A stretch of 22,769 nucleotides of DNA from a virus. The notes below the pieces were generated by a model. It saw only the letters and a program-made list of their open reading frames with translations, searched no databases and was not told where the DNA came from. The position numbers were made by a program, and so were the translations under genes. Of the stretch, positions 827-22,729 are shown piece by piece; position 1 is the stretch's first letter, and the number at the start of each line of letters is the position of its first letter. The DNA lies in the IMG/VR virus record IMGVR_UViG_3300043015_001826, positions 1 to 22,769 of that record, one strand, 5' to 3'.

Positions 827-3402
827 TATTTCGACTCCTCGAGGAAGGGCAAGCCATCGGCCGCCGTGGGTTGATCTCTGAGCCACGACAGGGAATCCGC
901 CGTGGTCGTTGATTTGTCGTCTTTGTCGCCGATCATGGCATGGATCCGGCGCCGTGTGGCCGGGTTGGCCAGCATGTCGCGGATCTGCTGATCGTTGGGC
1001 TGGTCAGCAGATGCCGCCAGCAGCGCCATGGAATTCGCGGGGATCGGGGTGATCGAAAACTCGACCAGTTCGTTCTGGCTGGCCACGATCCCCATGCTGT
1101 TTTCGGCGTATCTGGGATCGTTTTTGGGCAGATCCGCCCGGTATTGCACCTGACCGGGGAAAAACCCGACCGATCCGGCGTTCAAAAAACCCCGCTGTAG
1201 CTTGCCCGCAACTTCGGCAGCAAAGGGATCCTGCATGTCAAATTCCATGTCGATGACCAGCTGCCCATCGACAACATCCACCGCCAGCGCACGGGCGATC
1301 GGCGGTCTGCCGCTGTCGTGGTTCCACAGGATCACAGGGTTGGATTTGAACGCGTCCAGCTTCCAGCTCTGTTCGACTATGTCGCCCATGCGATCCACGT
1401 CTGCGGTCGATGCCACAAATTTGAATCGGCTCTGGATCATGTCGTCGGTCTGCCCATCCTCTGGCGCCATGCGCTTAAGGACGATCCCCAGTCGGTGTGT
1501 CATGTCTCCCCCATCCTTTGCGGCCATGCCCACGGCCATGCGCTCCCCTGCGTCGGCCGCGTCCATCTGGCGCCCCACCTTTTCCGCCCATGTCTGGCCG
1601 GGGTCTCCAAACCACGCAGCCCACGCCACGCGGCCGGGGCTTGGATAGCCAGGCTCCCCAGGGTCGAAGCCCTCGCCGTCTTTGTCGCCTTCGTGGCGGG
1701 CGAACCACGCACGCATCGCCCGCGCCTTTTCAAATGTGATATCCCCGCCGTCTGCGACCCGCCGCGCCCACAGCTTCGTGCCCTGGGTCATGCCGTCGCC
1801 GGCCTTGCCCTCTTCGATCCACTGGACTGCCCGCCTGGCCTCTTCGACCATGCCCGCCGTGGGTGTGAAGTCGATCCCTTCGTATCTGGCCGGGGTCGGC
1901 TTCGTCACCATGTCGCCGTCTTCGTCGGCTGCGCGGGTGGTGGCGCCTTCGTAGTAGCAGCGGCAATTCTCATGCCGTGGCAGCTCGGGACCGGCGTGTG
2001 ACCCGTCGGAACGAATCGCGAACACCCTGCCATCCAACGGGGCGCATATCTCGCACACCTTTTCGTCCCTGCCCGTCCTGTAGCGCACCGCTGGGCGGGC
2101 TTTGGCCTCTGGCTGGGTGTCGGTGTCGGTGCTGTGCACGATACGGAGAATCGGCGGGCTGGCGGCCTGCTGGGTAACCTCTGGCGGGCTGACCGGCTGG
2201 CCGGCCGGCTCTTGGATCATGCTGGGGTCGATTTCGGTGAAGCCCTCGACCTGGAGCGCATCGATCGGGGTCAGGCCGAATTTCTCCACCAGCATGGCCG
2301 CCCGCTGCATGCGGTCGGATCTGCTTTCCTGGAGCGCATCCACGCCGCTGGTGTCATGCACCACGCGATCGGACATGGTGCCCATGCGCTGCGCGATCCG
2401 GGTTAGGCCATCTTCGATCAGGGCGATCAACCCCAGCAGGTTTTGCCAGTAGATCCGATTCTGCTCTTTGGCGGTCGCAAAGTTGGCCGACGGCAGGAAG
2501 AGCCGCACGTAAGCCACGCCGATCACCGCCAGCACGCTGGATCGTGTCCAGTCGCGGGCGCTGGTGAATTCCATGTCTCGCGCATTGAAGGGCAGCAGGT
2601 TGACGTCAACGGGGCCGTTGATCGGCACCACGCCGGTGGATTCGATGTTGCGTTGTACGGCCTGCACCAGCTTTGCCATAACGTCGCCTGGGATCGGCAT
2701 GTCGCCTTTGGGGCTGATCGTCATGGAAGGCTGGCCACGCCCGGCCTCAGTGCGCCAGCGTTGGCTGGCCGCGTACTCGCCGCCCAGCTCCGTCTGGAGC
2801 ACCTCGATCGCACCCTGACCATACAACCCGGCCACACCGTCGCGCCACGTCGTCTGTTTGATGTGGATCACATCGTCGGGGCTATAGTCGGTGTATGTGC
2901 CATCCTGATCGAAGCGGTAGGCCAGCACCCCGCCGTCGGCGCTGGGGATGATCTGGACATGCTCAGGGTGGAGCCGTACCACAGAAGCAACCGACGACCC
3001 CGACCCCAAAACCAGCCCGTAAAAATTGCCGGCCAGCAGCAGATCGACCATCATTTGACGGCGCCACAGGGTGGGGCCTGTGCGGTGCGATGGCCGGCGC
3101 ATGAGTCGGATCATAGGGTGATCGGCCACCGTGCGCGACCGGGCGCCCACTTTGCGCTGCACCGTCAAGGGCAGGCCCGAAATGTCGTTAGCGACCGCTT
3201 CGACCGCCGCGTAAACCCATGGAAACTGCCCAAAAGCGGCCATGCTGTTGACGACAGGGTACGGCGGTGGCTGCGGTGTTTCGCGCTCCCATGCGCCCCC
3301 ATAGGTGATCTGGGTGGGCTGCTCGACGATGGTCAGCTGACGGATAATCCACCGCCAGCCATCTTCGATCCGTTGGGAAATAGTGCGCTTGTCTTTGGCC
3401 AT
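826..3402 (-). CDS. Portal / MuF-like / prohead protease (S78) fusion protein
   Basis: One uninterrupted frame of 858 residues. Residues ~25-350 match an HK97-type portal (VYAAVEAVANDISGLPL, NFYGLVLG, SPDDVIHIK, and the FATAKEQNRIYWQNLLGLI helix). A proline-rich linker near residue 400 carries a degenerate copy of the genome's GGCCGG repeat. A MuF-like zinc motif follows (VCEICAPLDG ... HENCRC). Residues ~498-620 form a domain with WFARHEGDK and GRVAWAAWFGDPG, seen in other phage head proteins. Residues ~634-858 are an S78 prohead protease: candidate catalytic His in VILWNHD (about 695), Ser in NAGSVGF (about 744), then VEFSITPIPAN. Portal and protease are normally separate proteins. The ATG at 3402 is used; the frame is also open to a TTG at 3438, and neither has a strong Shine-Dalgarno. 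Confidence 0.87.
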   Translation of the reverse strand: MAKDKRTISQRIEDGWRWIIRQLTIVEQPTQITYGGAWERETPQPPPYPVVNSMAAFGQFPWVYAAVEAVANDISGLPLTVQRKVGARSRTVADHPMIRLMRRPSHRTGPTLWRRQMMVDLLLAGNFYGLVLGSGSSVASVVRLHPEHVQIIPSADGGVLAYRFDQDGTYTDYSPDDVIHIKQTTWRDGVAGLYGQGAIEVLQTELGGEYAASQRWRTEAGRGQPSMTISPKGDMPIPGDVMAKLVQAVQRNIESTGVVPINGPVDVNLLPFNARDMEFTSARDWTRSSVLAVIGVAYVRLFLPSANFATAKEQNRIYWQNLLGLIALIEDGLTRIAQRMGTMSDRVVHDTSGVDALQESRSDRMQRAAMLVEKFGLTPIDALQVEGFTEIDPSMIQEPAGQPVSPPEVTQQAASPPILRIVHSTDTDTQPEAKARPAVRYRTGRDEKVCEICAPLDGRVFAIRSDGSHAGPELPRHENCRCYYEGATTRAADEDGDMVTKPTPARYEGIDFTPTAGMVEEARRAVQWIEEGKAGDGMTQGTKLWARRVADGGDITFEKARAMRAWFARHEGDKDGEGFDPGEPGYPSPGRVAWAAWFGDPGQTWAEKVGRQMDAADAGERMAVGMAAKDGGDMTHRLGIVLKRMAPEDGQTDDMIQSRFKFVASTADVDRMGDIVEQSWKLDAFKSNPVILWNHDSGRPPIARALAVDVVDGQLVIDMEFDMQDPFAAEVAGKLQRGFLNAGSVGFFPGQVQYRADLPKNDPRYAENSMGIVASQNELVEFSITPIPANSMALLAASADQPNDQQIRDMLANPATRRRIHAMIGDKDDKSTTTADSLSWLRDQPTAADGLPFLEESK
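1501..1512 (-). promoter_or_regulatory. Possible internal ribosome-binding site and ATG for a stand-alone protease
   Basis: Inside the fusion gene, GGGGGAGAC lies immediately before an in-frame ATG at 1503. Initiation there would give a 225-residue product, close to the usual length of a separate S78 prohead protease, beginning MTHRLGIVLK just ahead of the protease fold. The spacing (about 3-5 nt) is shorter than ideal, so this is a candidate only. Confidence 0.4.
2191..2210. repeat. GGCCGG palindromic element, degenerate copy inside fusion gene
   Basis: This copy reads GACCGGCTGGCCGGCCGGCT and lies in the proline-rich linker between the portal and MuF-like domains, encoding PAGQPVSPP. Its left flank (TGGCGGG) resembles the flank of the copies at 4986 and 10761. 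Confidence 0.6.
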
Positions 3403-3443
3403 TGTTGCCCGTGTACCGTCGCCGGGTTGCAAGGTCAAGACCT

Positions 3444-3472
3444 AACATACACGACCGGGATCCCTGTAGCAA
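3444..3472 (-). promoter_or_regulatory. Candidate promoter before the portal fusion gene
   Basis: Reading leftward, TTGCTA and TATGTT are separated by exactly 17 nt. The -10 lies only 5 bp before the possible TTG start at 3438, so a transcript from here would favour the ATG at 3402. Four of six positions match consensus in each box. The rest of the 3405-3501 gap holds only a copy of the palindromic repeat. Confidence 0.4.
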
Positions 3473-3483
3473 TTTGAAGGGTC

Positions 3484-3503
3484 GACAGGCCGGCCGGCCG
3501 GTC
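3484..3503. repeat. GGCCGG palindromic element between terL and portal
   Basis: GACAGGCCGGCCGGCCGGTC. Its last bases form part of the TGA stop codon of the large terminase gene. Confidence 0.85.
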
Positions 3504-5025
3504 ACACCCACTTCGGTTCGGTCTTCATCCAGTACACCATGTAGCGCAGACAATCCGACAGGTGGTCGGCCTCTTTGTGGATCGTCCCGTCGGGCTTGCG
3601 TCTGTATAGGTTCAACTCTCTAAGCAGCTCCACGCAGTTGGCATGGAAGACCAGCCGGGGATGGCCTTGCTCACACAGCGCCAGCCGTTCGGCCACCGCG
3701 TCGATCCCCGGCTCCACCCCTTTGCGTGCTGGGCTGGTGTGGAGGTCGTGATCCCTTGCCAGCGTGATCCGCCCGTCTTTGTCTGCTGGGTCGGCCACCG
3801 TCCATGCAAACCGATCTTGACCAGACAGGGCAATTATCTGGCGGGCGTTGGCCGACAGCTTGACGTCTTGCGTCAGCAGCTCGCAGTAAATGTGCAGCTG
3901 GTCAAGGTCGGGATCGAGCGCACCCCACACACATGCGAAATTGTATCCGAAGTCAATCGCCCGGAACCGGCGCCACTCCGTCGGCAGGGTGCGCGGCTCC
4001 ACCACATGGATGGCGCGATCGAGCGACGGGTAGATCAGGCCACGGGCGCGGGCAAATTTGCCATACAACCGGGCGTCGCGCTTGTGCGGCTCCAGGTGGC
4101 TGAAGCGTGCCAGCAGGGATCGGCTGCGCACGTGCGGGTTGTCCAGACCTGTGATCCGGCTGTACAGATGGCCGGGCGGTGGGTTGTGCACGAAGCGATC
4201 AAAAGCCCATGTCAAGCCCTTCAGCGGTGTCATGGACAGCACCGCCACCCCGTCGGTTTCGGCCAGCCCACGGCTGATCTCTTCGTACACGTCTTCGGGG
4301 TGCTCTTCGTCAAGGATGGCCGCTCGTGGGGCGTTGCCCTGGAATTTCTCGCGACCCTGTGCAGCCGCCTTGCAGACGATCCGGCCCCCGTTGGGCATGA
4401 TGCACTCGGCCTGGTCGACGGCTTTCCATTTGCGCCGCTTGGTGCCCGCTGGAAGCCACCGATCAAGCTTTGGGCGGTGGTATTCAAGGCTATCGTTGAA
4501 GGTCAGCGCAGACACCACGACCGCTCGATCATGGGTGGCCGGCCCAACAGGGATGGCCGACGGGTCGATCCCGTTCAGCCTGCACCACCGACGCACCCAC
4601 CATTCCCCAGACCCTGCGGCCAGCGCCACGGCCAACTGTATGGCCGATTCCGACTTGCCCGCCCGGTTGGCGCCGCCGATCATGTACGCCACCAGATGCC
4701 GCGTATGGAGTAGTTCGGCCATGGTGTCGCGCTGGCTGGTGCGTGCTTCTGGCTGGCCTTCCATGTCACACCCAGCCGTGTGGCACACGTAGGATCCGCG
4801 CACGCCGGGTACTGGGTGCATTTCATGGCCGCAGCCCCGTGGGCGGCCTGTGTCGCCATGCCACCGGGTGCAATGTGGACGCCACAGACGCCCAAAGGCC
4901 AGCGGGTAGGCGTCGGCGATGGCCTCCAGGTCTCCCAGGTCTTGGATGTGCTCCGACAGCATCCACCGCGCCTCATTGGGATCCTGTGGCGGGTGGACTG
5001 GCCGGCCGGCCGGTTTACTCGTCAT
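3502..5025 (-). CDS. terL: Terminase large subunit (packaging ATPase-nuclease)
   Basis: 507 residues, a normal length for the family. It translocates DNA into the prohead and cuts it. ATPase signatures are Walker A GGANRAGKSE (117-126), Walker B AAILDEE (235-241) and coupling motif SMTP (264-267). The nuclease half shows IDFGYN (Asp 358), ADPADKDG (~411) and a C-terminal KEADHLSDCLRYM with candidate metal-binding Asp residues. The N-terminus before Walker A has an unusual Cys/His cluster (C52, H56, C65, H67, H70, C81, H82, C86) that could bind zinc. The ATG at 5025 overlaps the end of terS by 11 nt. Residues 4-13 are encoded by a palindromic repeat copy, so the conserved protein may really begin later, for example at Met 22. 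Confidence 0.95.
   Translation of the reverse strand: MTSKPAGRPVHPPQDPNEARWMLSEHIQDLGDLEAIADAYPLAFGRLWRPHCTRWHGDTGRPRGCGHEMHPVPGVRGSYVCHTAGCDMEGQPEARTSQRDTMAELLHTRHLVAYMIGGANRAGKSESAIQLAVALAAGSGEWWVRRWCRLNGIDPSAIPVGPATHDRAVVVSALTFNDSLEYHRPKLDRWLPAGTKRRKWKAVDQAECIMPNGGRIVCKAAAQGREKFQGNAPRAAILDEEHPEDVYEEISRGLAETDGVAVLSMTPLKGLTWAFDRFVHNPPPGHLYSRITGLDNPHVRSRSLLARFSHLEPHKRDARLYGKFARARGLIYPSLDRAIHVVEPRTLPTEWRRFRAIDFGYNFACVWGALDPDLDQLHIYCELLTQDVKLSANARQIIALSGQDRFAWTVADPADKDGRITLARDHDLHTSPARKGVEPGIDAVAERLALCEQGHPRLVFHANCVELLRELNLYRRKPDGTIHKEADHLSDCLRYMVYWMKTEPKWV
4986..5014. repeat. GGCCGG palindromic element at terS/terL overlap
   Basis: The core ACTGGCCGGCCGGCCGGT lies at 4997-5014. The 28 bases 4986-5013 are identical to 10761-10788 inside the replication initiator gene. 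Here they encode PAGRPVHPP at the TerL N-terminus, in a different frame from the other copy. Confidence 0.85.
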
Positions 5026-5497
5026 CTGTCTGGCTGTCGTCGTCTTCGGTGTCGTCTTCGTGGTAGACCGTGGCGATCAGCTGCTCCCGGATCTGGCTGG
5101 TGTGGTCGATACGCTCCAGCAGTCGATCGAGATCCTGACCGTCACCCAGCCGGCTCGACTCGGTCTGGGCGATCTCCCCACGTATGTCGAGCTGTCGGTG
5201 GTAGCCGAATCGCCGCTCCATCACCCACGCAGCCGCCCTCCAGTCCTCCTGTGCGGCCTGTTGGATGCGTGCGAGCTGGGCAGCGGCACACTGTGAGCGC
5301 CCCTGCGAAATGGCCTGCCAGAAGGCCGCATAGACTGTCCCGCGTTCGTTCTGACCTCTGGCGAGGATCCTGTAATATGTGCGCTGGCTGATCCCGATGT
5401 ATTGACAGGCCAGCTCGTTGGTCATGCCCAGCCGCATGGCCTCACGTGCCATGCGCACCATTTCCGGGGTGATCTCGATTGGTGGGCGCCCCATCAC
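5015..5497 (-). CDS. terS: Terminase small subunit
   Basis: 160 residues. The N-terminal ~55 residues look like a helix-turn-helix DNA-recognition domain: a predicted helix with MVRMAREAMRLGMT, then ACQYIGISQRTYYRILARG. A helical middle (QLARIQQAAQEDWRAAAWVMERRFG) is typical of the oligomerisation region of phage small terminases. The C-terminus is very acidic (HEDDTEDDDSQTDDE), a likely contact for the large subunit. It lies directly upstream of terL, overlapping by 11 nt. Its ATG at 5497 overlaps the TGA of the methyltransferase gene (ATGA), so the three genes are translationally coupled. The name is from fold pattern and position. Confidence 0.88.
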   Translation of the reverse strand: MMGRPPIEITPEMVRMAREAMRLGMTNELACQYIGISQRTYYRILARGQNERGTVYAAFWQAISQGRSQCAAAQLARIQQAAQEDWRAAAWVMERRFGYHRQLDIRGEIAQTESSRLGDGQDLDRLLERIDHTSQIREQLIATVYHEDDTEDDDSQTDDE

Positions 5498-7122
5498 TCA
5501 CCATCCACCACGGCCGACAGCCGCGCCCGGATGATGTCGCAGTAGTGAGGATCGCGTTCACTGGCGATGCAGGCCATGCCCTCACGCTGTGCAGCGATCA
5601 GGGTTGTCCCACTGCCGCCGAAAGGTTCCACCACCAGCCCTCCGGGTGGTGTGACCAGTCGCACCAGCCAACGCATGAGACCGATCGGCTTGACCGTGGG
5701 ATGGTTGTTCTTGACCTCTGAAGCGGTTCGGCCAGCGCCTGTCCTGGGGTTGTTGAGACCCGCCGATCCCTCTTTGCGCTCGACAGCCTGGGCGCCTGTG
5801 ACCGCTGGCAAGTCGTCGCAGCCCTCTTCCCGTTCTGCGCGGCTGGGCTTGACGCAGTGGTATATGTTGCCCGGCCATCGGCCTCCCTCTTTGTGTTGCT
5901 GCACAACATCACCGGGCTTTGCTCCACCAAAGTCAATGGATGCCGCTTGACTTTGGCGTATGACCTTTGTGAAGTCTGGTATTGATTTGTCAGCCTGCGG
6001 CCATGCTGGATCACCATAGGGGATCCGCGCCGCGTCGATGTTTAGGCCGCCCGTTCCATGCGTCAGAACGTTTTCGGCGATCGTCCCTTGTAAGGGCTTG
6101 CGTACCAGGATCGCCGGCTCCTGTGCAGGCTTTAGGGCTGTACCCCAGCCCGCCCACCGCTTGGCCTCTGGCGTGATCCCGGTGTGTTCTGGCATGGCCT
6201 GCGGTGCTGCGTATGACTGTCCGACCATGTTGTTGACAGCTACGCCACGGTGCCCCATGGCGCCCAGATGCTTGTCGATCTGGATGCACACGTTGTGGCT
6301 TTTGGGGAATCCCTGCCATTGCAACCACGCGATCATGTCGCGTACTTCAAACCCGGCATCTTCGAGATTCACCGTCAGGCGGTGTACGGTGCGTGTGGCT
6401 GCGAAGGCGACCATGTGCCCGCCGGGCTTCAGCACCCGAAGACATTCGGCGGCAAATTCTGCACCGGGTACGCTGGAATCCCAGCCCTTGCCCATGAACC
6501 CGATCCCGTATGGTGGATCGGTCACTATGCTGTCGACGCTGTCGGCGGGCAGGCTTCGAAGCATCTGTAGACAGTCTACGCAGTGGAGGTCATGGCGGCC
6601 GATCGTCACCGTGTCGCCTGCCTGGGTGATGGTAGGCACATCTTCTGGGATCTGGTCGTCGGTGGATCTGTCGGCGGTGTCATCGTCGGCCGTGGCGCCT
6701 TCCATGTCGAACGGGTCAGCGGTTAGGATCGCGTCCAGCTCATCCTGTGACCACCCCAGGCCATCCAGATCGAAGGACTGATCGGCCAGGCTCTGGAGGA
6801 TATCGGCCACACCTTGATCGTCCCACGTGGCGATCTCGTTTAGTTTGTTGTCGGCCAGCGCCAGCGCCGCAGCCTGTGCAGGGTCGAGATCCATGTATCG
6901 GACCAACACTTTGTCCATGCCCAGCTGTTGCGCGGCTTTGTGGCGGGTGTGGCCTGCGATGATCACCCCGTCGGTGCGCCGGGCAATGATCGGGGCGCCC
7001 CAGCCGAAACGCTCGATCGACTTTGCGACATGATCAACGGCTTCGTCGTTGTGGCGTGGGTTTTGTTCCCATGGCTTGACGTCGTTAATGTGTACCCACA
7101 TGGCGGGATTGTCGGTTGTCAT
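5494..7122 (-). CDS. ParB-domain fused DNA methyltransferase
   Basis: 542 residues. Residues ~10-100 form a ParB/sulfiredoxin-like domain (WEQNPRHNDEAVDHVAKSI, GVIIAGHTRHKAAQQLG). Residues ~165-542 form an amino-methyltransferase: catalytic TDPPYG at 201-206, and the SAM-binding motif VEPFGGSGTT at 498-507. Catalytic motif before SAM motif is the beta-class order. DPPY methylates the exocyclic amine of adenine (N6) or cytosine (N4). No cognate restriction enzyme is visible, so it is probably solitary, for self-protection or replication/packaging control; the ParB-like part suggests DNA positioning or specificity. The start is the ATG at 7122 after CAGGAGACACC. A 39-bp leader with the palindromic repeat, nearly identical to that of the tail chaperone gene at 22693, precedes it. 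Confidence 0.9.
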   Translation of the reverse strand: MTTDNPAMWVHINDVKPWEQNPRHNDEAVDHVAKSIERFGWGAPIIARRTDGVIIAGHTRHKAAQQLGMDKVLVRYMDLDPAQAAALALADNKLNEIATWDDQGVADILQSLADQSFDLDGLGWSQDELDAILTADPFDMEGATADDDTADRSTDDQIPEDVPTITQAGDTVTIGRHDLHCVDCLQMLRSLPADSVDSIVTDPPYGIGFMGKGWDSSVPGAEFAAECLRVLKPGGHMVAFAATRTVHRLTVNLEDAGFEVRDMIAWLQWQGFPKSHNVCIQIDKHLGAMGHRGVAVNNMVGQSYAAPQAMPEHTGITPEAKRWAGWGTALKPAQEPAILVRKPLQGTIAENVLTHGTGGLNIDAARIPYGDPAWPQADKSIPDFTKVIRQSQAASIDFGGAKPGDVVQQHKEGGRWPGNIYHCVKPSRAEREEGCDDLPAVTGAQAVERKEGSAGLNNPRTGAGRTASEVKNNHPTVKPIGLMRWLVRLVTPPGGLVVEPFGGSGTTLIAAQREGMACIASERDPHYCDIIRARLSAVVDGE

Positions 7123-7158
7123 GGTGTCTCCTGATTGTTGACCGGCCGGCCGGCCTGT
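7120..7158 (-). promoter_or_regulatory. Repeat-plus-RBS leader of the methyltransferase gene
   Basis: The palindromic element (GACCGGCCGGCCGGCCTGT, 7140-7158), a short spacer containing TTGTT, and the strong ribosome-binding leader CAGGAGACACC (7123-7133) lie directly before the ATG. Of 39 positions, 38 match 22691-22729 before the tail chaperone gene. Confidence 0.7.
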
Positions 7159-7215
7159 TTTCCACAGTGTTATTCACAGGTTGTGGATAAGTAGTTTTCC
7201 ACAGACTTATGCATA
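7158..7215. other. DnaA-box cluster, candidate replication origin
   Basis: This AT-rich island in a GC-rich genome lies between two leftward genes. It holds TTTTCCACA (7158-7166), TTATTCACA (7170-7178), TGTGGATAA (7182-7190, a perfect inverted TTATCCACA), TTTTCCACA (7195-7203) and TTATGCATA (7207-7215, one mismatch). Four boxes match the DnaA consensus TTWTNCACA within 46 bp. Such clustering suggests host DnaA binding, for phage origin firing or for control of the adjacent methyltransferase gene. Confidence 0.7.
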
Positions 7216-9068: not shown

Positions 9069-9515
9069 TCAGTCTGGATGCACGATCGATACCTGTACAT
9101 ACACGCCCGGCTGATCCCCTGCATGCTTTGTAGCGGTAACTTCCACGACCTGCGAATCGTTGGCGATCACACCGGCCATCTGGGCGGCATCGAAGATGCC
9201 CTTAATATAGTTGTCAATGTCTCCCCAGCACCCGCCGACGGGCGCCGGGTAGTCCTGATCGGCCAGCCAGTACAGCGCGGCCAGCCCAGACCGTGGGCGG
9301 CTCTTTGGCCGTGGGATCACGACCTCGATCGAGACCGCCACCGCCATGCCGATCGGCGTGCGTCGACGATAGGCGGCCTGGAGCATGAGGGCGCACCGCT
9401 GTTTATATTGGGAGTAGCGCTTGGTATTGTACGTGCCCCACTTCGTCACCCGTGGGCGGCTGGCGGGGATGGGTTCGCCGGGGATCCAGAGCTGGATCAA
9501 TGGTTCGCCGCTCAC
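9069..9515 (-). CDS. rusA: RusA-type Holliday junction resolvase
   Basis: 148 residues from a GTG at 9515 that overlaps the upstream stop (GTGA) after a GGGGGG Shine-Dalgarno. A longer frame exists, but its extra N-terminus reads a palindromic repeat. RusA endonucleases resolve recombination and replication junctions. The family signature is clear: an N-terminal PGEPIPASRPRVT, then GDIDNYIKGIFDAAQMAGVI, then NDSQVVEVTATK. Acidic residues D99, D101 and D120 match the spacing of the catalytic aspartates of E. coli RusA. Size is normal for the family. It belongs to the early replication and recombination block and may also debranch DNA before packaging. Confidence 0.88.
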   Translation of the reverse strand: MSGEPLIQLWIPGEPIPASRPRVTKWGTYNTKRYSQYKQRCALMLQAAYRRRTPIGMAVAVSIEVVIPRPKSRPRSGLAALYWLADQDYPAPVGGCWGDIDNYIKGIFDAAQMAGVIANDSQVVEVTATKHAGDQPGVYVQVSIVHPD

Positions 9516-9844
9516 AGCACCCCCCACGCGTCGACGGTGGACAGGCTGGCCGGCCGGCCGGTCACATCTGATCGCATGATGGGGATCCGCACGCTGCACG
9601 ACGTGCACACCCCCACGCCCAGACGGTGCCCCATGCTGGGATCGGTGGTGCATAGGTCCACATCGTCAAGCGAGGGCAGGCGCACAATCGCCAGCTCTGG
9701 ATCGGCTTGGTGTGCAGGCCAGGCGCTGACCCGCTGGCGCATCACCGACAGGGTGCCGGGGCACGCCTTGCCAAAGCCCAGATCACGGCCGCAGACGGCG
9801 CCGGATCGCACCCAGCGCGGCTCGAAGAGGTCGTGAATGATCAT
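9512..9844 (-). CDS. Hypothetical small Cys-rich protein
   Basis: 110 residues, not recognised. Cysteines at C18, C28, C64, C80 and C83 (the last two as GVCTSCSV) suggest metal binding. The ATG at 9844 overlaps the TGA of the upstream gene after GGGGGGAGACCG, and its stop overlaps the rusA GTG. The C-terminal ~15 residues (TGRPASLSTVDAWGVL) are encoded by a palindromic repeat copy, so the ancestral protein may have ended before it. Context (between loader-like protein and RusA) suggests a DNA metabolism role. Confidence 0.6.
   Translation of the reverse strand: MIIHDLFEPRWVRSGAVCGRDLGFGKACPGTLSVMRQRVSAWPAHQADPELAIVRLPSLDDVDLCTTDPSMGHRLGVGVCTSCSVRIPIMRSDVTGRPASLSTVDAWGVL
9544..9564. repeat. 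GGCCGG palindromic element in the gene before rusA
   Basis: The core CTGGCCGGCCGGCCGGTCAC lies within the last codons of the 110-residue gene, about 30 nt before the rusA start. Confidence 0.8.
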
Positions 9845-10638
9845 CGGTCTCCCCCCATGGCCAGCCCTGCCCGCTGGAGAAAGGCCGCCGCTTCGTCGCT
9901 GACGTTTCCGCGCATGGCCTGATATACCGCCCGCCGGATCCGGGTCTGCTCTGGTGTCGGGCCGTGTTCCTCTTCAGGGCTTGGCCGGGTGTACCATGGC
10001 GACCCCGGCCGGCTGTCTTCACTGACAAGCCGGGCGCTGGATCCCGACACATAGTTGCGGGCGTCGTGCCTGTTAAACGCCTTCCATGCTTCCGACAGGG
10101 TAAGCGTTGGGCGCCAGTTGGCCGGCCGGCTGGGGACTTGACCTTTGGGGATCTCGCGCTGTAGCTCGATCTGCTGCTGGGCTGCGATCTGGCGGCCTTT
10201 CTCGCAGTCGCAGATCACCAGACGGTGACCGATCCGGTAGGGCACGGCGTGCCAGTCTACGCGGCCATCGTCGCCCATGGGGTGGCAATGCTGCACAAAG
10301 TGACGGAATCCGGTCCCATGTTCCGACACCGACCCGTCGGCCGCCAGCAGCTCGCCGCACCCTGCACACCCACGGGTGATGTGGCGCACGGTGTGGCGTT
10401 CGTCGGCCTCGATCGTCATGCACAGCGACAGCAGGTCGGCCGCCGTGGGGAAAAAGCGCCCGCTTTCCGGGTCTGCGATCCACGCCCGTGCGGCCTGGAG
10501 CACCACATCGGAGCGCATGGCACGCAGACAGTCGGCATAGGCCATCTGCACCCCCCGATCGTCGGGGTGGGGGCATTTGTGCACCCGTGCTGCGCGTAGG
10601 TATTCGATCACCTCTTTAATGTCGTCTTCACTGGCCAT
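9841..10638 (-). CDS. Putative helicase-loader-like replication protein with zinc motif
   Basis: 265 residues. The N-terminal ~75 residues (VIEYLRAAR...VQMAYADCLRAMRSDVVLQAARAWIAD, then RFFPTAADLLSLC) resemble the small helical domain of phage replication loaders that follow DnaD/O-like initiators. A CAGCGE pair at ~90, then HCHP and ICDCEKG, could form a zinc site. The C-terminal third is polar and probably flexible. It follows the replication initiator with an 11-nt overlap and a CAGGAGACACC leader, supporting a partner role of lambda P type. A partial palindromic repeat copy lies inside (SRPANW). The loader function is inferred mainly from position and a loose pattern. Confidence 0.6.
   Translation of the reverse strand: MASEDDIKEVIEYLRAARVHKCPHPDDRGVQMAYADCLRAMRSDVVLQAARAWIADPESGRFFPTAADLLSLCMTIEADERHTVRHITRGCAGCGELLAADGSVSEHGTGFRHFVQHCHPMGDDGRVDWHAVPYRIGHRLVICDCEKGRQIAAQQQIELQREIPKGQVPSRPANWRPTLTLSEAWKAFNRHDARNYVSGSSARLVSEDSRPGSPWYTRPSPEEEHGPTPEQTRIRRAVYQAMRGNVSDEAAAFLQRAGLAMGGDR
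10120..10131. repeat. GGCCGG palindromic element, short copy in loader-like gene
   Basis: GGCCGGCCGGC only, without the usual flanks. It lies in coding sequence. Confidence 0.5.
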
Positions 10639-11464
10639 GGTTGGTGTCTCCTGTGTAGTCGGTCAGATCCCATGGGGCCTGGCCGGGCTGGTGGGTGGGG
10701 GCTGGGGTGGCGTAGCGCTCTGCAAGGGTCAGCGCGGGCGCCAGTGATGGGGTGGAGCTGGTGGCGGGTGGACTGGCCGGCCGGCCGGGGTCGACTTGGA
10801 TCCCGTTGGCCTCCAGCACCCGCCAGATTTTGTCGAGCCGTGGGCGGCTGGCCGACCTGCCCAGATCAGCCGCCAGACCGTCGCGGCCTGTCTGGGCGAT
10901 CTGCTCCAGGGTGGTGTAGCCCACCCGCTGGAGGTCACGAACCAGATCCGGCCACAGCCGATCGCGGCCATCACCAGAGACAGAATCGAGATCAGTCCCG
11001 GCCAGCCCGCCGGCCGGTATGTGTTCTCTGTCTCTGTTCTCTGTCTCTGTAGATCGCGCGTGTGGCGGGCTTTGGGCGATTGTTGGGCGAAAAGTGGGCG
11101 AAAAGTGGGCGACCGCGTGAGGTTCGCCGGGTGTTTTCGCTCCAAAACTGGGCGGTTTTTGGGCGATTGTTGGGCGATTGTTGGGCGGGTTTTGGGCGAC
11201 GTGCAGGGCGTCGATCCGCCATGTCTCACCACGTAGCAGCGTCCGCACGGCGTGATCCGTCCATGACCAGCGGGCAGCCAGGCGCCGACGGCTGGGGATC
11301 CGTGCGACACGACCCAGCCGGATCTGGCCATCCCAGAAGCGCAGATCCATCATGGCGGCCGACTCACACCACGGGGCGCCGGTGCGCTCCAGCTGGTCGG
11401 CAATCTCGATCCACCATGCGACAGGGCAGGCTTCCCAGCCGATGGCCGCCGGGGTGGCCGTCAC
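10628..11464 (-). CDS. Replication initiator, O/DnaD-like winged-helix protein with internal iterons
   Basis: 278 residues from the GTG at 11464, overlapping the stop of the small membrane gene (GTGA). The N-terminal ~90 residues look like a winged helix: VAWWIEIADQLERTGAPWCE, then RIPSRRRLAARWSWTDHAVRTLLRG, as in phage initiators and DnaD N-domains. A Pro/Asn/Gln-rich linker (NPPNNRPTIAQKPP...FRPTIAQSPP) is encoded by nine 11-bp direct repeats. The C-terminal part (~170-225: LWPDLVRDLQRVGYTTLEQI...LDKIWRVLEANG) is helical, then disordered. Iterons within the initiator gene recall lambda ori inside O, which binds its own origin and recruits helicase. The next gene is loader-like, as P follows O. 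A 28-bp repeat copy near the end encodes PGRPASPP. Confidence 0.7.
   Translation of the reverse strand: MTATPAAIGWEACPVAWWIEIADQLERTGAPWCESAAMMDLRFWDGQIRLGRVARIPSRRRLAARWSWTDHAVRTLLRGETWRIDALHVAQNPPNNRPTIAQKPPSFGAKTPGEPHAVAHFSPTFRPTIAQSPPHARSTETENRDREHIPAGGLAGTDLDSVSGDGRDRLWPDLVRDLQRVGYTTLEQIAQTGRDGLAADLGRSASRPRLDKIWRVLEANGIQVDPGRPASPPATSSTPSLAPALTLAERYATPAPTHQPGQAPWDLTDYTGDTNHGQ
10761..10790. repeat. GGCCGG palindromic element inside replication initiator
   Basis: 28 bp (10761-10788) identical to 4986-5013 at the terS/terL junction. Here it is read as PGRPASPP, in a different frame from TerL's PAGRPVHPP. Confidence 0.85.
11024..11049. repeat. 13-bp CT-rich tandem repeat
   Basis: TTCTCTGTCTCTG occurs twice in tandem (11024-11036, 11037-11049). 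It is strand-asymmetric and immediately beside the iteron array, in the initiator gene. Confidence 0.75.
11068..11198. repeat. Iteron array, candidate replication origin within initiator gene
   Basis: Nine 11-bp direct repeats ending in GGGCG occur in two blocks: four at 11068-11111 and five at 11144-11198. The commonest unit is ATTGTTGGGCG (three copies); others are AAAAGTGGGCG (two), GTTTTTGGGCG, GGTTTTGGGCG, AAAACTGGGCG and GGCTTTGGGCG. The 11-bp period places sites on one DNA face. Two adjacent units keep the G block exact while the encoded residues vary, which favours protein binding to DNA over protein selection. Confidence 0.75.
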
Positions 11465-11619
11465 AGCCACACCAGCCCGACGAAGGCCACGCCGGCGCCC
11501 ACGCCGATCACAAACCATAGCAGGCCGATCAGCAGCTCGCGCACGGTCTGGCGGTGCCTATAGGCCGCCCAATCTTGTTCGGTGACGAACCACAGGGTAT
11601 TAGTATTTTGTTCAGACAC
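11461..11619 (-). CDS. Small single-span membrane protein, 52 residues
   Basis: A short gene starting with GTG at 11619, preceded by GGAG five nt upstream, and ending in a TGA that overlaps the initiator's GTG. The N-terminal ~28 residues are polar (MSEQNTNTLWFVTEQDWAAY). They are followed by one strong hydrophobic segment (LLIGLLWFVIGVGAGVAFVG) running to a Leu at the C-terminus. The coupled start-stop and G/C third positions support it as real. The function is unknown. A membrane protein inside the replication block might act in membrane association, superinfection exclusion or host takeover, without evidence for any of these. Confidence 0.65.
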   Translation of the reverse strand: MSEQNTNTLWFVTEQDWAAYRHRQTVRELLIGLLWFVIGVGAGVAFVGLVWL

Positions 11620-12001: not shown

Positions 12002-12020
12002 GCCGGCCGGCCGGCCGGGG
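12002..12020. repeat. GGCCGG palindromic element between the two HTH genes
   Basis: GCCGGCCGGCCGGCCGGGG, in the 149-nt gap between the HTH genes. Confidence 0.8.
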
Positions 12021-12024
12021 CTGT

Positions 12025-12033
12025 CAGGAGACA
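12025..12033 (+). promoter_or_regulatory. Orphan RBS leader without a gene
   Basis: CAGGAGACA points rightward directly after a palindromic repeat copy, the same order as at 13194-13242. No ATG, GTG or TTG with a sensible frame follows before stops. It looks like the remnant of a lost gene start. The rest of the 11918-12066 gap shows nothing else that can be supported. Confidence 0.45.
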
Positions 12034-12066
12034 AACCCCAGCACCCGGCCAGCCGACCAGCCGCCG

Positions 12067-13193: not shown

Positions 13194-13219
13194 GACTGGC
13201 CGGCCGGCCGGTCAACAAT
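13194..13219. repeat. GGCCGG palindromic element upstream of a rightward gene
   Basis: The core ACTGGCCGGCCGGCCGGTC continues into AACAAT. It is followed by CAGGAGACACACC and the ATG at 13243, the same order (repeat, AACAAT, leader, ATG) as on the other strand at 7122 and 22693. Confidence 0.85.
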
Positions 13220-13242: not shown

Positions 13243-13878
13243 ATGATCGAAATGCACCGACTCAACCGCGCACCCATCACCATTATGCAGATGGGTGGCG
13301 CCCTGAAGCAAAGCGGATCCCACTACGGGATCGTTATCAACCCCGAAACCCGCGCCGTGGGCGACTACGCCGGGATCGGCGCTGGCATGCCCGCCGAAAT
13401 CTATCACCAGCGGGTTCTGTTCGTGCCCGTGCGCCGCACCGTGCACCAGCCCAGCCTGATCAACGCGATCAGCGAAAACTTCGACCTGATCCACGACCTG
13501 ATCGCCTGCTATCAAGGCGTCGAATACAACGGATCCGACACCGTGGGCGTCTGGTCGGATCTGCACGTCGACCTTTTCGAGCTGCTGCGCGACACGCTGA
13601 TCAATGTGCCCGACCTCTTCGATGCCGGCGACTACATCCACGGATCGGCGCTGTCTGACCTTCTGGCATATGGTGAGACCGTCGACGATATCGCACAGGG
13701 TCTGATCGAAGAAGGCGCCGCCAACGCGGTGCACCTTGACCGCGTCGACCTGATCGAAGCCCTCCAGACCTATCTGGCCGACGAATACCAGAGCCTCGCA
13801 GACGATCGCGACATGCTGAACAGCGACGAAATCGGCTATCTGGATGCAATCGCCACCGCGCTGGGTGCTGGCGCATGA
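13243..13878 (+). CDS. Hypothetical early acidic protein
   Basis: 211 residues from the ATG at 13243, behind the repeat-AACAAT-CAGGAGACACACC leader. No family is recognised. The N-terminal ~70 residues look strand-rich (PITIMQMGGALKQSGSHYGIVINPETRAVGDYAG). The rest is predicted helical and acidic (LIHDLIACYQGVEYNG, VDDIAQGLIEEGAANAVHLDR, LQTYLADEYQSLADDRDML). No membrane segment is seen. It is the second gene of the rightward early operon, and its TGA overlaps the next ATG. An early role in host interaction is likely from position only. Confidence 0.72.
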   Translation: MIEMHRLNRAPITIMQMGGALKQSGSHYGIVINPETRAVGDYAGIGAGMPAEIYHQRVLFVPVRRTVHQPSLINAISENFDLIHDLIACYQGVEYNGSDTVGVWSDLHVDLFELLRDTLINVPDLFDAGDYIHGSALSDLLAYGETVDDIAQGLIEEGAANAVHLDRVDLIEALQTYLADEYQSLADDRDMLNSDEIGYLDAIATALGAGA

Positions 13879-15200: not shown

Positions 15201-15491
15201 TCAACCCCAGGTCACATAGTGAAGATTGGGTGTGCCCGACGTCGAAGCGAAATAGACCCGGAAAAGGCCGGTATACCCTTCGGCACGCTGCCAGACGGTC
15301 AGCCATTGCTGTTTGGGCATCTTCACCGGGGTGGAGCTGCCGCCCATTGACATGGTGCCGTCATTGGTGCCATCATCCAGATAGACCGACACCGCCTGCA
15401 CGGTGTCATCCAATTGCAGATAGTTGGCCGACATGGTGGAGCTGATCGCGATCTGCCCGCTGCGGGTGTGGGTCGGCGTTGCGCTTGCCAT
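15201..15491 (-). CDS. Hypothetical small structural-type protein
   Basis: 96 residues from the ATG at 15491, behind GGGGATCACACT. It is rich in Ser, Thr, Gly, Val and Tyr with alternating hydrophobics (VQAVSVYLDDGTND, LFRVYFASTSGTPNLHYVTWG), suggesting a beta fold. It sits 1 nt before the fibre-like gene start, so they are probably translated together. It may be a fibre partner or tail decoration protein. Confidence 0.55.
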   Translation of the reverse strand: MASATPTHTRSGQIAISSTMSANYLQLDDTVQAVSVYLDDGTNDGTMSMGGSSTPVKMPKQQWLTVWQRAEGYTGLFRVYFASTSGTPNLHYVTWG

Positions 15492-15507: not shown

Positions 15508-15741
15508 CTATTGACCGGCCGGCCGGCCTGTCATGGTGTTGATTGTTTGGCGTAGGATAGCCCGCACGTGGTGCAGACGGGGCACCAGAAGCGACCATGG
15601 GCGCCACTGGGCGGGCAGCTCGGCATCGGGGCGCCGACGTGCGCCTGGCAGTGGCTGCCACCCTGCGGCTGGTGTCACGGTCACCCGTTCCCGTCGCCAT
15701 GTCGCCCGGTCAGTCTTGAGATCATGCGCCACCATAGCCAC
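15508..15741 (-). CDS. Hypothetical basic protein, C-terminus encoded by repeat
   Basis: 77 residues. The frame opens with GTG at 15741, or with ATG at 15735, behind AAGGGGGG, and overlaps the end of the signal-peptide gene by about 20 nt. It is rich in Arg, Trp and Pro (ATWRRERVTVTPAAGWQPLP, QWRPWSLLVPRLHHVRAIL). The last residues TGRPAGQ and the TAG come from the palindromic repeat, so an older stop may have been lost. No family is recognised; as a small overlapping gene it is less certain than its neighbours. Confidence 0.5.
   Translation of the reverse strand: MAMVAHDLKTDRATWRRERVTVTPAAGWQPLPGARRRPDAELPAQWRPWSLLVPRLHHVRAILRQTINTMTGRPAGQ
15511..15532. repeat. GGCCGG palindromic element at a gene boundary in the late operon
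   Basis: The core GACCGGCCGGCCGGCCTGTC is preceded by TT. It overlaps the end of the 77-residue gene. Confidence 0.85.
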
Positions 15742-16719: not shown

Positions 16720-16728
16720 GGGTGCCCC

Positions 16729-17445
16729 CTATGCAATATCGAGGAAAAACGCGGCCTTGGCTTTGGCCAGCAGCGCCGCTCTGCTCTTGATCCCGTTTGT
16801 ACCACCGTTGATCGCCCGTGTCACCGCTTCCAAATCGTCGCGGTCAGCGTCGGCGTTGATGTTGCGATCCAGCCAGTAGTGGGCGGCCACCTGATATGCC
16901 ACGTACGGCATGGCCGCCAGATCGGGCTGGGCTTCGAGGTTGATCCCCAGATAGTCGCCCAGCGCACGATAATTCGCGCGGCCAGTCAACTGGATCACGC
17001 CCCGGCCCTTGTAGCGCACCCCGTCGCCTGGCTGGGTGTTGCCCAGGTCTTTTCGGCCTTCGTATGCTTTGCCGCTGGCATACTCCACAAGGGTGGCGAA
17101 ACCTGCACTTTCATGGGCGATTTGAGCCAAAAAATGCGCCTTGCGCAGTGGGGTGGCCGCTATTTCGATCAAAGCGGCCTGTAACAGTGGAAGGTGTGGC
17201 GCCTGGAATTTGGGCGCCACGGCCTGCACATCTTCGAGTCGCACCCATTCGATCCCCTGCACCACGCTGGCCAGCCGCCTGTCGAGGTCGGCCAGCAGCA
17301 CACCCGACGGCTGACCAGTCGGCCGCAGCCCGGCGGCTCGTTCGGCCGCTTGGATGGCCGCACGGGTGCGCCGACCCATCACCCCATCCAGTCGGCCGGG
17401 TTCGTACCCCATCCGCGCCAGCGTGTGCTGGAGTCGCAGGATCAT
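16729..17445 (-). CDS. Endolysin: peptidoglycan-binding domain plus GH19 chitinase-like domain
   Basis: 238 residues. Residues ~1-45 (LQHTLARMGYEPGRLDGVMGRRTRAAIQAAE) form a PG_binding_1-type repeat. Residues ~80-238 are GH19-like: LLQAALIEIAATPLRKAHFLAQIAHESAGF with the likely catalytic Glu in HES, then YKGRGVIQLTGRANYRALG (the hallmark GH19 motif), and VAAHYWLDRNIN and VTRAINGGTNG. It cleaves the glycan strand of the host cell wall at lysis. Domain order and size are typical of endolysins from Gram-negative phages. No signal peptide is visible, so a holin or other export is needed. The ATG at 17445 overlaps the upstream TGA. Confidence 0.9.
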   Translation of the reverse strand: MILRLQHTLARMGYEPGRLDGVMGRRTRAAIQAAERAAGLRPTGQPSGVLLADLDRRLASVVQGIEWVRLEDVQAVAPKFQAPHLPLLQAALIEIAATPLRKAHFLAQIAHESAGFATLVEYASGKAYEGRKDLGNTQPGDGVRYKGRGVIQLTGRANYRALGDYLGINLEAQPDLAAMPYVAYQVAAHYWLDRNINADADRDDLEAVTRAINGGTNGIKSRAALLAKAKAAFFLDIA

Positions 17446-17687
17446 GGTGTGTCCAGCTGGGCGCAGATCACCCGCCAGAGAAGTGGTGCACCGTCGGCGC
17501 CATTGCGGCCGCTGTAGGCGCTGATCGCTTCGATGTACAGATCGCCGCTCAGGCCTTCGGCGATCAGGTCTGGGATCTCTTCGGCGCGGGCGTTGGGTCG
17601 CAGTCGGTCAGACAGTGGCGCCCGCGACCTGAAGCCCCGAAATTTGGCCGGTATGTTGCGGATTACGTATGTTTGTAGCTTTGGCAT
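17442..17687 (-). CDS. Hypothetical small protein before endolysin
   Basis: 81 residues from the ATG at 17687, behind AGAGGCCACACC. The sequence (QTYVIRNIPAKFRGFRSRAP, ARAEEIPDLIAEGLSGDLYI) is mixed helix and strand with no membrane segment; no family is recognised. It is translationally coupled to the endolysin by an ATGA overlap. The 17688-17760 gap upstream carries a palindromic repeat and an AT-rich stretch with TATAAAG, a weak -10 candidate without a convincing -35. Confidence 0.6.
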   Translation of the reverse strand: MPKLQTYVIRNIPAKFRGFRSRAPLSDRLRPNARAEEIPDLIAEGLSGDLYIEAISAYSGRNGADGAPLLWRVICAQLDTP

Positions 17688-17735
17688 GGTGTGGCCTCTG
17701 ATCGCTTTATATCATGTTGGATCGTCAATACATTG

Positions 17736-17755
17736 TTGACAGGCCGGCCGGCCGG
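17736..17755. repeat. GGCCGG palindromic element after the tail-tip gene
   Basis: TTGAC followed by AGGCCGGCCGGCCGG, in the noncoding gap between the tail-tip gene and the 81-residue gene. Confidence 0.85.
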
Positions 17756-17760
17756 ATCCC

Positions 17761-19371
17761 CTATGCTGTTTCGTCTTCGGACACGTTCACCGGCAGGGTG
17801 GCCAGCGTTAGCCGCGTTCGGTTGTCGTTTAGATCCATCTCCTCACGTACCACCATCACCAGCCGTTGATCGTAGCCGTACCGCGTGCCCGTCAGTCGAC
17901 CGCGCACCCCAGCGGTGGACAACTGCACCACGTCGCCGGCCGCGTAGGATCTCAGGCCGTATACCGCGACCTCCACAAACTCCGGCACGAAGTGGCTCCA
18001 CCCAGCCAGGCGGTCGCGGGTCTCCGTGGCCACGTCGGCCGCATTGGATACGCCGACCGTCTGCGCTTGCAGATCATACGTCACCAGCTCACGGGCGGGC
18101 AGGGTGGTGACGTTGGACGAATCCGACACCGTGCCACCACTGTGGAGGATCCGCAGCGTGTGGTATACCTCCGGCACGTCGGGCGGGTGCCATTGGATGC
18201 TGGGCACCTCGATCAGATCATCGTCGGACAGGTCGCCAAACTGCCTGGCCAGCCCGACGGTGTGGAGCTGCCGCGCCATGCGTGGCACGATCTGCCCTTC
18301 TTTGAAGGCCAGCCAGATCCCGGCCGCACCCCATATCGACACGATCCACGCCGCCGGGTCTGGGATCTCCGCTTCGATCAGGATCCGCCAGTCGTAAGAT
18401 CCAACGGACAGAGACAGGATCCGGGCGGCCTGTGCCCAGCCGTAGTCGCTCAAGAGGTCGGCAGGGATACCCAGCCCCCACGCCTGTGGCAGCGTGTCGT
18501 ATGCCCCATTGGTGCCCGCGCCTGTGGACGTCAAGACCTTGCGCAAGATCTCGATCGGGTGTCCCTGAAGTAGAACAACCGATCCAACCGGCCGGCCGGT
18601 GCTGGCCGCTGCCGCCGTGGTGCCATACTGCCCAGACGATGAAAGGCCGGTCAGGGTGCCCGTGGTCTCCCCTGTGAAGGTCAGGTAAAAGTCGTCCCCC
18701 ACGTCGGGCGTGATCTTCACCGCACCGGTTCCCCCGGTCTCACGAAGGAATCGATCCGTGGTGGCGCCTGTGATGCTGATCGACGTGTCGGCTACCGTAT
18801 ACCCTGCCGACAGCGTGTCGGTCTGCCCAGCGCAGCCATAGAATAGCTGCGCACGGTCTGCCGCGCTGGCGCCCGCTGCGGCCAGACGGGTACGGATCCC
18901 GGTGGTCAGATCCCAGCATTCGATCCGCAGCAGATTGGGGTGGCCATCGCTGGAGACTTCAGACACCCGACCCACCTTAAGGGCTTGATACTCGGATCGG
19001 GTATAGCCGACCTCCCCGATCGACAGTCGCAGGATCGCGCCCTTCCGTAGCGCACGGGCGGCATACTCCAGGCCGGCGCGGGTGTACTGCTGACCAGACA
19101 CCAGCCCGTCGGAGACCTTGATCGTGACACTCCAGCCACCTTCGATCGGTTGCCATGTCTGTATGTTGATCCCGGTGCTGCCCAGCCGTGGGGCGTATCC
19201 GTCACGCTGTAGCAACTCCGCAAAGGGCGCTAGGCCGGGATCGGTCGCGGCATACCACCCGTCGTGTCCAACGCCCTCGCCGTTGGCCGGCATAAGACAT
19301 TCCAAAAGCAGGGCTTGGTGTACCACGCCGCCGCTGTAAAGCTTGGATCGAAATGAAGCCGGCCATGTCAT
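17761..19371 (-). CDS. Putative tail-tip or baseplate hub protein
   Basis: 536 residues from the ATG at 19371 (MTWPASFRSKLYSGG), 2 nt past the upstream TGA. The frame extends to 19530, but that part reads as a shadow of the previous gene. A beta-rich N-terminal half contains YTRSEYQALKVGRVSEVSS and LRIECWDLTTGIRT. A Thr/Gly-rich insert follows (TSISITGATTDRF, FTGETTGTLTGLSSSG), then VSIWGAAGIWLAFKEGQIVPR and DNRTRLTLATLPVNV. It follows tape measure and a Dit-like gene, the usual place for siphovirus tail-tip proteins. A short palindromic repeat copy lies in its middle (STGRPVG). Assignment is contextual. Confidence 0.6.
   Translation of the reverse strand: MTWPASFRSKLYSGGVVHQALLLECLMPANGEGVGHDGWYAATDPGLAPFAELLQRDGYAPRLGSTGINIQTWQPIEGGWSVTIKVSDGLVSGQQYTRAGLEYAARALRKGAILRLSIGEVGYTRSEYQALKVGRVSEVSSDGHPNLLRIECWDLTTGIRTRLAAAGASAADRAQLFYGCAGQTDTLSAGYTVADTSISITGATTDRFLRETGGTGAVKITPDVGDDFYLTFTGETTGTLTGLSSSGQYGTTAAAASTGRPVGSVVLLQGHPIEILRKVLTSTGAGTNGAYDTLPQAWGLGIPADLLSDYGWAQAARILSLSVGSYDWRILIEAEIPDPAAWIVSIWGAAGIWLAFKEGQIVPRMARQLHTVGLARQFGDLSDDDLIEVPSIQWHPPDVPEVYHTLRILHSGGTVSDSSNVTTLPARELVTYDLQAQTVGVSNAADVATETRDRLAGWSHFVPEFVEVAVYGLRSYAAGDVVQLSTAGVRGRLTGTRYGYDQRLVMVVREEMDLNDNRTRLTLATLPVNVSEDETA
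18587..18600. repeat. GGCCGG palindromic element, exact 14-bp palindrome in coding sequence
   Basis: ACCGGCCGGCCGGT lies in the tail-tip gene, within the Ala/Thr-rich segment that follows its Gly/Ser loop. Confidence 0.6.
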
Positions 19372-19373
19372 GA

Positions 19374-21961: not shown

Positions 21962-22155
21962 TACAGGCCCCCTGTCATCGGCAGGGTCGGAAAGACCATG
22001 GCCTTTTGTTGCTTTGCGTTCTCCACCAGCACATCGAATTCAGCCAGTCCAGACAGCCGACACGCCGTATCCACCAGCACGGCCGCCCATGTGCCGGGCG
22101 CTATCCCCAGCATGGTGGCGGGCGTGGTGTGGTAGCGCCTGGCTTGCTTATCCAT
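21961..22155 (-). CDS. Second tail assembly chaperone segment, possible frameshift product
   Basis: 64 residues if started at the ATG at 22155 (behind GAGGGG), with sequence ARRYHTTPATMLGI then TWAAVLVDTACRLSGLAEFDVLVENAK, a pattern common in the small ORF between tail chaperone and tape measure. The frame stays open upstream to 22254, overlapping the end of the first chaperone gene by 80 nt in the +1 frame. A shift near the end of that gene (TTT C at the FPV end, or the weak TGA C stop) would join the two as a G-GT-type pair. Both readings are kept open. Confidence 0.6.
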   Translation of the reverse strand: MDKQARRYHTTPATMLGIAPGTWAAVLVDTACRLSGLAEFDVLVENAKQQKAMVFPTLPMTGGL

Positions 22156-22174
22156 CTGGCTGCACCCCTCTTCG

Positions 22175-22693
22175 TCACACAGGAAACGGGGCCCAGTGCT
22201 GGGCCACCTCCGTGGCTGGCGCCAGTGTAGCCTGCAAAACGTTGGCCAGTCCATCGGAGCGGATCACGCGGTCGGCCAGCAGCCGCACCACCCCATCCCC
22301 GTCGCCCTCTTCGTCTGGGCTGTCAACCCACACCACGGGCACCCAGTGGGTGGGATCGTCGAAGTCTTGGACGTGCGTGATCACGCTTTTGGCCACCTGC
22401 ATGGATCGGCCGATGATCTGATCGATCTGCTGCCGCTGCTCTTCGTCTGACCGCTGCGCGGCCTCCAGCTCGGCCGCCTCGAGGCCCGTCAAGTCGGCTT
22501 CGTCCGGCTGGCGATAGCGCCCGATCAGCTGCTGGAGGGTCTGGATAAGGACACCCAGCCGGGCGGCCTCCTGTACACCGATAAACCGCACCTTAAAGGC
22601 CAGCGCGACCCCAGGCCGCAGCGGTTGGTAAGCGATGGCGGAAGATGCTTGATCGATCTGATCGAAGATCCCCCGCTTGGTCGTGGTTTCCAT
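22175..22693 (-). CDS. Tail assembly chaperone
   Basis: 172 residues from the ATG at 22693, behind CAGGAGACAAC. It is mostly helical, with a polar N-terminus and a low-complexity Gln/Glu region (LEAAELEAAQRSDEEQRQQIDQ). A strand-rich stretch (HWVPVVWVDSPDEEGDGDGV) precedes the end. Its place between tail tube and tape measure, and the overlapping second frame, match siphovirus tail chaperones, which coat the tape measure during tail assembly. The leader at 22691-22729 is nearly identical to that of the methyltransferase gene. Confidence 0.7.
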   Translation of the reverse strand: METTTKRGIFDQIDQASSAIAYQPLRPGVALAFKVRFIGVQEAARLGVLIQTLQQLIGRYRQPDEADLTGLEAAELEAAQRSDEEQRQQIDQIIGRSMQVAKSVITHVQDFDDPTHWVPVVWVDSPDEEGDGDGVVRLLADRVIRSDGLANVLQATLAPATEVAQHWAPFPV

Positions 22694-22708
22694 GTTGTCT
22701 CCTGATTG

Positions 22709-22729
22709 TTGACCGGCCGGCCGGCCTGT
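22709..22729. repeat. GGCCGG palindromic element upstream of the tail chaperone
   Basis: GACCGGCCGGCCGGCCTGT preceded by TT, in the noncoding leader. With the RBS it matches 7120-7158 at 38 of 39 positions. Confidence 0.88.

Follow-up and report, generated by a model that had tools for sequence, protein, structure and literature searches.

The virus record analysed here (IMG/VR record IMGVR_UViG_3300043015_001826, 22,769 bases, hereafter the window) is a fragment of the genome of an uncultured tailed phage, whose recognised genes lie nearly all on the minus strand. It carries 13 short tandem arrays of a CCRG tetranucleotide (R = A or G), and such arrays recur, with lineage-specific changes at R, in all members of one phage clade. 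Judged from sequence comparison, there is about an even chance that they are genome-wide oriented sites read by a sequence-specific protein. No description of such CCRG arrays was found in the open-access literature. It has long been asked how mosaic phage genomes keep exchanging modules at sensible positions, and the boundary sequences have seldom been visible; a recognisable mark at many borders, combined with lineage codes, makes both the reader and a role in recombination or transcription testable.

Number and nature of the arrays

The element is a run of three to eight CCRG units, 12-32 bp in length, which reads CYGG on the reverse strand. All 13 elements listed in a first-pass annotation of the window were found again, to within ~13 nt, as arrays of at least three CCRG/CYGG units. 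First-order Markov sequences of the window contain a mean of 0.13 such arrays (maximum 2 in 100 runs) and third-order sequences a mean of 1.01 (maximum 4). G002, a relative with 54% GC, has 11 arrays where 0.41 are expected. Shuffled sequences and relatives of similar GC had been named beforehand as the refuting test; neither gives a comparable number, and chance and GC content are rejected as the cause.

The first-pass annotation had described the element as palindromic, with ACAGGCCGGCCGGCCGGT as its fixed core. This feature proved not to be essential: a CCAG/CTGG unit is present in six of the 13 arrays, the window being otherwise mostly CCGG, and the arrays of relatives are often purely CCAG. 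An array is symmetric only if it is pure CCGG; the palindrome described there is a special case, with G at all R positions. The TTGAC or GTCAACAAT sequences said to flank the element accompany some copies, not all. Copies of only two units outside the arrays are in little or no consistent excess; the unit is therefore taken to be the longer array, and a short Chi-like unit is rejected.

Distribution among related phages

A phage collection contained no close relative of the window. Relatives were recruited with TerL, the portal/protease polyprotein and the major capsid protein (MCP); every one is a metagenomic contig, several are incomplete, and the gene calls behind the statistics given below are automatic. 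One clade, with about nine distinct phages, carries arrays in all its members, at a density of 0.1-0.9 per kb, and clade genomes hold 10-20 arrays, one per 1.3-2.6 kb. The next group (TerL ~43% identical, 11 records) has no arrays, and contigs whose MCP is at most 57% identical, many of them at 58-70% GC, have zero or one single 3-unit array and no dispersed set.

G012 and G013 (90% identical) have arrays in common at nearly every aligned site, and of 12 sites aligned between the window and G008 (68% identical), 9 have an array in both. The G012 and G013 contigs are circularly permuted relative to each other, and G012 has cleanly lost one 128-aa gene, the missing stretch beginning ~17 nt before an array of G013.

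It could be supposed that the arrays have no function and arose by tetranucleotide slippage, the product being copied into sites that tolerate it and homogenised by gene conversion. A slippage-like (CCAG)7 run in G008, the tolerance of linkers for copies and the few copies that differ between relatives are all consistent with such neutral or selfish spread. It is nevertheless improbable, as sites are retained across genomes that are 90%, 85% and 68% identical, with a skeleton conserved well above the flanks; moreover, neither the polarity nor the even spacing of the arrays would be expected from it, and no clean empty site was seen.

A lineage-specific code at R

In alignments of the window with G008, the C, C and G positions of the arrays are identical in 108 of 117 cases (~92%), against 68% in the flanks, and 14 of the 15 changes at R are exchanges of A and G. 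The succession of R residues is GGGG or GGGA in the window, GGAG in G008, AAAA in G002 and G009, and often AGGG in G003, G004 and G012. CCGGCCGGCCAGCCGG is found at five of the six 4-unit arrays of G008 (54% GC), CCAGCCAGCCAGCCAG in the arrays of G002 and G009 (54% GC), and often CCAGCCGGCCGGCCGG in G003, G004 and G012.

The proportion of R positions occupied by A rises from 0.13 in the window to 0.39 in G008 and 0.98 in G009, whereas the background CCAG:CCGG ratio outside the arrays is 0.59, 0.70 and 0.70, respectively. Since G008 and G009 differ at R (Fisher p = 7e-11) despite an equal GC of 54% and an equal background, base composition does not set the code. The presence in each lineage of its own R code, genome-wide, suggests that a single trans-acting reader serves every copy.

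Orientation, spacing and folding

Arrays of at least four units are almost always oriented along the TerL strand: the plus:minus counts are 5:0 in the window, 7:0 in both G008 and G009, 4:0 in G002, 8:1 in G012 and 8:2 in G013. Spacing between neighbouring arrays is more regular than under random placement in six of six genomes, individually significantly so in the window, G012 and G013. Taken jointly against a gene-boundary-matched null, the summed coefficient of variation is 3.6 versus 5.5, with 0 of 2000 draws as even, the genomes being related. Of the arrays, 38% are no more than 40 nt from a gene end as called automatically, against an expected ~21%; the preference for gene borders is real but moderate.

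As a general explanation, RNA hairpins or intrinsic terminators at the ends of genes are refuted and retain next to no probability. It is true that CCGG copies fold (-10 kcal/mol) and that a 9-bp stem carries one G002/G009 copy in its loop. However, CCAGx4 arrays at orthologous sites are unfolded (0 kcal/mol) and, because CCAGx4 cannot fold, single-strand structure is excluded as the general basis of the arrays. The first-pass annotation was correct in finding no T-tracts in the elements. The arms on either side are in general no more complementary than chance would give, arrays are conserved inside genes, and no Rfam family was found.

Arrays at module edges

Similarity breakpoints among the clade genomes form 107 clusters, 19 of which lie within 20 nt of an array. 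Shifted arrays would give 3.9 and a gene-boundary-matched null 6.8 (0 of 2000 in both), so that the coincidence is about three times that of even the gene-boundary controls. Two cases are the clearest. In the polyprotein, the sequence to the right of the array at 2193 encodes either of two middle domains that are unrelated to each other and that each occur in both sub-clades (window; L011, L013, L014, L012); G002, G004, G005 and G009 have the domain of the other type. In the gap after TerL, G002, G008 and G009 carry 0.7-0.9 kb that is extra relative to the window, and the break falls at the array.

The suggestion of the first-pass annotation that the elements mark module junctions thus receives support from the breakpoint statistics and from the domain swap at the 2193 array. 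Taken as a complete explanation, it would make the arrays linkers, that is, shared short sequences where phages of the clade recombine, homogenised by recombination and requiring only a general annealing or recombination enzyme. The clustering of breakpoints, the swapped domain with its left edge at an array and the insertions that start at the post-TerL array are all in keeping with such linkers. This explanation is possible, if on the unlikely side: codes that differ between lineages cut the shared homology that such linkers should offer, and neither the strong polarity nor the even spacing is predicted. The events are also few, with only ~6 distinct junctions, each counted in several genomes; gene gaps and linkers tolerate both arrays and breaks, and in-gene linkers are unmatched in the null. 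With so few independent events, and with in-gene linkers tolerating both, the arrays may be either cause or consequence of the edges.

A putative reader and its role

If the arrays are protein-read sites, they would be ~16-bp oriented sites of tandem CCRG, often followed by TCA, recognised on DNA by a sequence-specific protein. That a protein does the reading, and does so on DNA instead of RNA, is our inference. One reader, encoded by the phage or by the host, would act in trans on every copy, and a change of reader would lead to a genome-wide change of code. The sites would be spread evenly, mostly in one orientation and preferably at gene borders and inter-domain linkers. Their most likely roles would be to stop or tune transcription between modules or to organise the phage DNA. 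They would in addition be junctions in module exchange, either because the reader or the sequence promotes exchange or because those exchanges that respect the sites survive. Binding of a protein, which the first-pass annotation had considered, is the best fit to the conserved skeleton and to the phage-wide coordinated change of code, the reader itself being putative and deduced from sequence. A general role at translation starts, also considered there, does not agree with the retention of arrays inside linkers and after stop codons.

Several observations weigh against protein-read sites. The genomes compared are related, so that counts are not independent and p-values are too small. Pfam and PHROGs searches of the proteins tested named no repressor or other DNA-binding regulator, and PDB and family searches gave no regulator. 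The models of two clade-specific proteins reached predicted local distance difference test scores (pLDDT) of 45 and 67, the latter without a significant match in a PDB library. Concerted change of the code could also be explained by gene conversion among copies, and some 3-unit copies are probably due to chance or driven by RPAG/RPAN protein motifs.

Two candidate readers were rejected. The ParB-domain methyltransferase is present in array-free outgroup phages and was not detected in G012, G013 and G004. The initiator-like protein was not found in G012 or G013, and G002 and G009 share a code yet differ in the DNA-binding part of this protein.

Arrays and genes of the window

The genes that could be named comprise, on the minus strand, the portal/protease polyprotein (826-3438), TerL (3502-5025), TerS (5015-5497), the ParB-domain methyltransferase (5494-7122), a RusA-like gene (~9069-9512, its start probably at 9512) and an endolysin (16729-17445), together with the initiator-like gene at 10628-11518. 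Border placement of the elements, as described in the first-pass annotation, is borne out, the count being eight of the 13 by gene-map reading rather than nine or ten.

These eight arrays, all on the minus strand, are located as follows. The array at 3490-3501 directly follows the TerL stop codon, ahead of the portal gene, and is the point of the 0.7-0.9 kb insertion in relatives. At 4998-5013, CCGGCCGGCCGGCCAG spans the TerS stop and the TerL start, and G008, G009, G012 and G013 have an array at the same place. The array at 7142-7153 lies 20 nt upstream of the ParB-domain/methyltransferase gene and is kept in G008; that at 9546-9561 lies ~35 nt upstream of the RusA-like gene and is kept in G008, with a similar one in G002. 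The array at 13196-13211 is ~31 nt upstream of a divergently transcribed gene (13243-13878), which encodes an acidic protein of 211 aa, fast-diverging among relatives and with no family match. Those at 15515-15526 (24 nt upstream of a gene starting at 15491) and 17744-17755 (6 nt past the stop codon of a tail gene) are both kept in G008 and G009, the latter being an insertion edge relative to G012 and G013. Finally, the array at 22713-22724, 20 nt upstream of a gene starting at 22693, is degenerate in G008.

Three arrays, again on the minus strand, are inside genes, at linkers or loops. The one at 2193-2208, CCGGCCGGCCAGCCGG on the sense strand, is in a polyprotein linker at the left edge of the swapped middle domain, which by alignment covers approximately 1893-2192 (minus strand) and is of the CxxC...CRCYYE type here. 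The 3-unit array at 10122-10133 is inside a 265-aa gene and may be protein-driven, since the motif (S/G)RPAxWRPTL is itself conserved. CCGGCCGGCCGGCCAG occurs again at 10773-10788, where the initiator-like gene encodes a C-terminal linker; G008 has eight units there.

The surroundings of the array at 12003-12018 are uncertain, and no strand was assigned to it. It adjoins a block at 12019-12040 (CTGTCAGGAGACAAACCCCAGC / CTGTCAGGAGACAAACCCCAG(C)) that is kept in the window, G008, G009 and G002 and resembles a ribosome-binding leader, with no obvious start codon. The 3-unit array at 18588-18599 (minus strand), within a tail gene, is probably a chance occurrence, as G008 and G009 lack it at the corresponding position of the alignment.

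The initiator-like gene contains, at 11073-11203, two groups of 11-bp direct repeats, TGGGCG(A/G)...., nine in all. By analogy with lambda O, they are probable replication origin iterons. With this separate set of repeats in the initiator-like gene, CCRG arrays were rejected as origin iterons. Another assembly of this phage (L009) is identical to the window over 7,166 bases and stops 13 bases past the 7142 array (7154-7166), which suggests that arrays may be able to break assemblies.

A second dispersed motif in more distant phages

L101/G029 (MCP 48% identical) is without the CCRG set and carries the palindrome CGAANTCGANTTCG (also RCGAANTCGANTTCGY) 13 times, with one mismatch allowed; its sites include the TerL-portal gap, a position after the capsid gene and positions 25-35 nt upstream of starts. 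The same metagenome yielded a 139-kb phage that looks unrelated, with no match to the clade TerL or polyprotein in 40 kb of its sequence; it contains 57 evenly spaced copies of CGAANTCGANTTCG, and a 62-kb relative of this phage contains 25 (records L101 and L152-L165; G029, G041 and G042). Since it is common to phages that look unrelated, this motif appears to be host-linked.

The CCRG arrays might likewise be host-linked iterated marks, of the HIP1, Chi or DNA uptake sequence type: a motif used or tolerated by the host, with a code that follows the host. The palindrome of L101/G029 and the 139-kb phage offers a parallel, albeit with a different sequence. For the CCRG arrays themselves this origin is distinctly unlikely. 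No unrelated virus with a dispersed CCRG set was found, and short sub-motifs are not enriched, unlike Chi. CCRGx4-TCA is present in 0 of 195 genomes of Verrucomicrobiota, a host phylum guessed from one relative: the sole lead of the host search was a 39% identical TerL in a Verrucomicrobiales metagenome-assembled genome.

The unrelated motif of L101/G029 and G041 suggests that dispersed marks may be more widespread and host-linked. We tentatively propose a broader scheme, which is unlikely to hold in all its parts, in which a single reader of lineage-shifted R specificity would recognise evenly spaced, one-way arrays marking the borders of gene and domain exchange, and in which other phages would share this layout but use an unrelated motif, one that follows their host.

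Comparison with known systems

Taken as protein-read sites, the CCRG arrays would resemble mycobacteriophage stoperators or SAS in their logic, while belonging to another sequence class; by the features tested, they are not members of the stoperator, SAS or HIP1 systems. Stoperators of Cluster A mycobacteriophages are single asymmetric sites of 13-14 bp, present in 20-30 copies genome-wide, mostly in one orientation to transcription, and bound by the immunity repressor; their lineage-specific motif variants co-vary with the trans-acting protein (PMC6550527, PMC9283540). CCRG sites are similarly spread over the genome, predominantly in one orientation, with lineage-specific variants. However, they are tandem tetranucleotide arrays of 12-32 bp, also found inside genes, with no 13-14 bp asymmetric motif of the L5/Bxb1 type, and no repressor or integrase was recognised by PHROGs and Pfam among the proteins tested, the window being a fragment.

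The start-associated sequences (SAS) and extended SAS (ESAS) of Cluster K mycobacteriophages are repeats located at the starts of genes; they are short, oriented and specific to the phage, are conserved across subclusters and are absent from the host (PMC3203893). CCRG arrays are also short, oriented and phage-specific, but only part of them precede starts, others being located after stops or in genes and linkers, and they are built of 4-bp units. HIP1 of cyanobacteria is a highly iterated, GC-rich 8-bp palindrome of host genomes that is tied to methyltransferases and replaced by alternate HIPs in some lineages (PMC4390886). The motif of L101/G041 is comparable in being common to different replicons, whereas CCRG arrays are clade-specific, oriented and, in many genomes, non-palindromic (CCAGx4 in G002 and G009). 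Unlike intrinsic terminators, they do not in general combine a stem-loop with a T-tract.

Short conserved boundary sequences at phage module junctions could guide homologous recombination, the known cases being individual junctions (PMC3029335). The coincidence of similarity edges with CCRG arrays (19/107 versus 6.8, not independent across genomes) recalls such sequences, but here a single sequence type is repeated at even intervals, 10-20 times, with a code specific to each genome.

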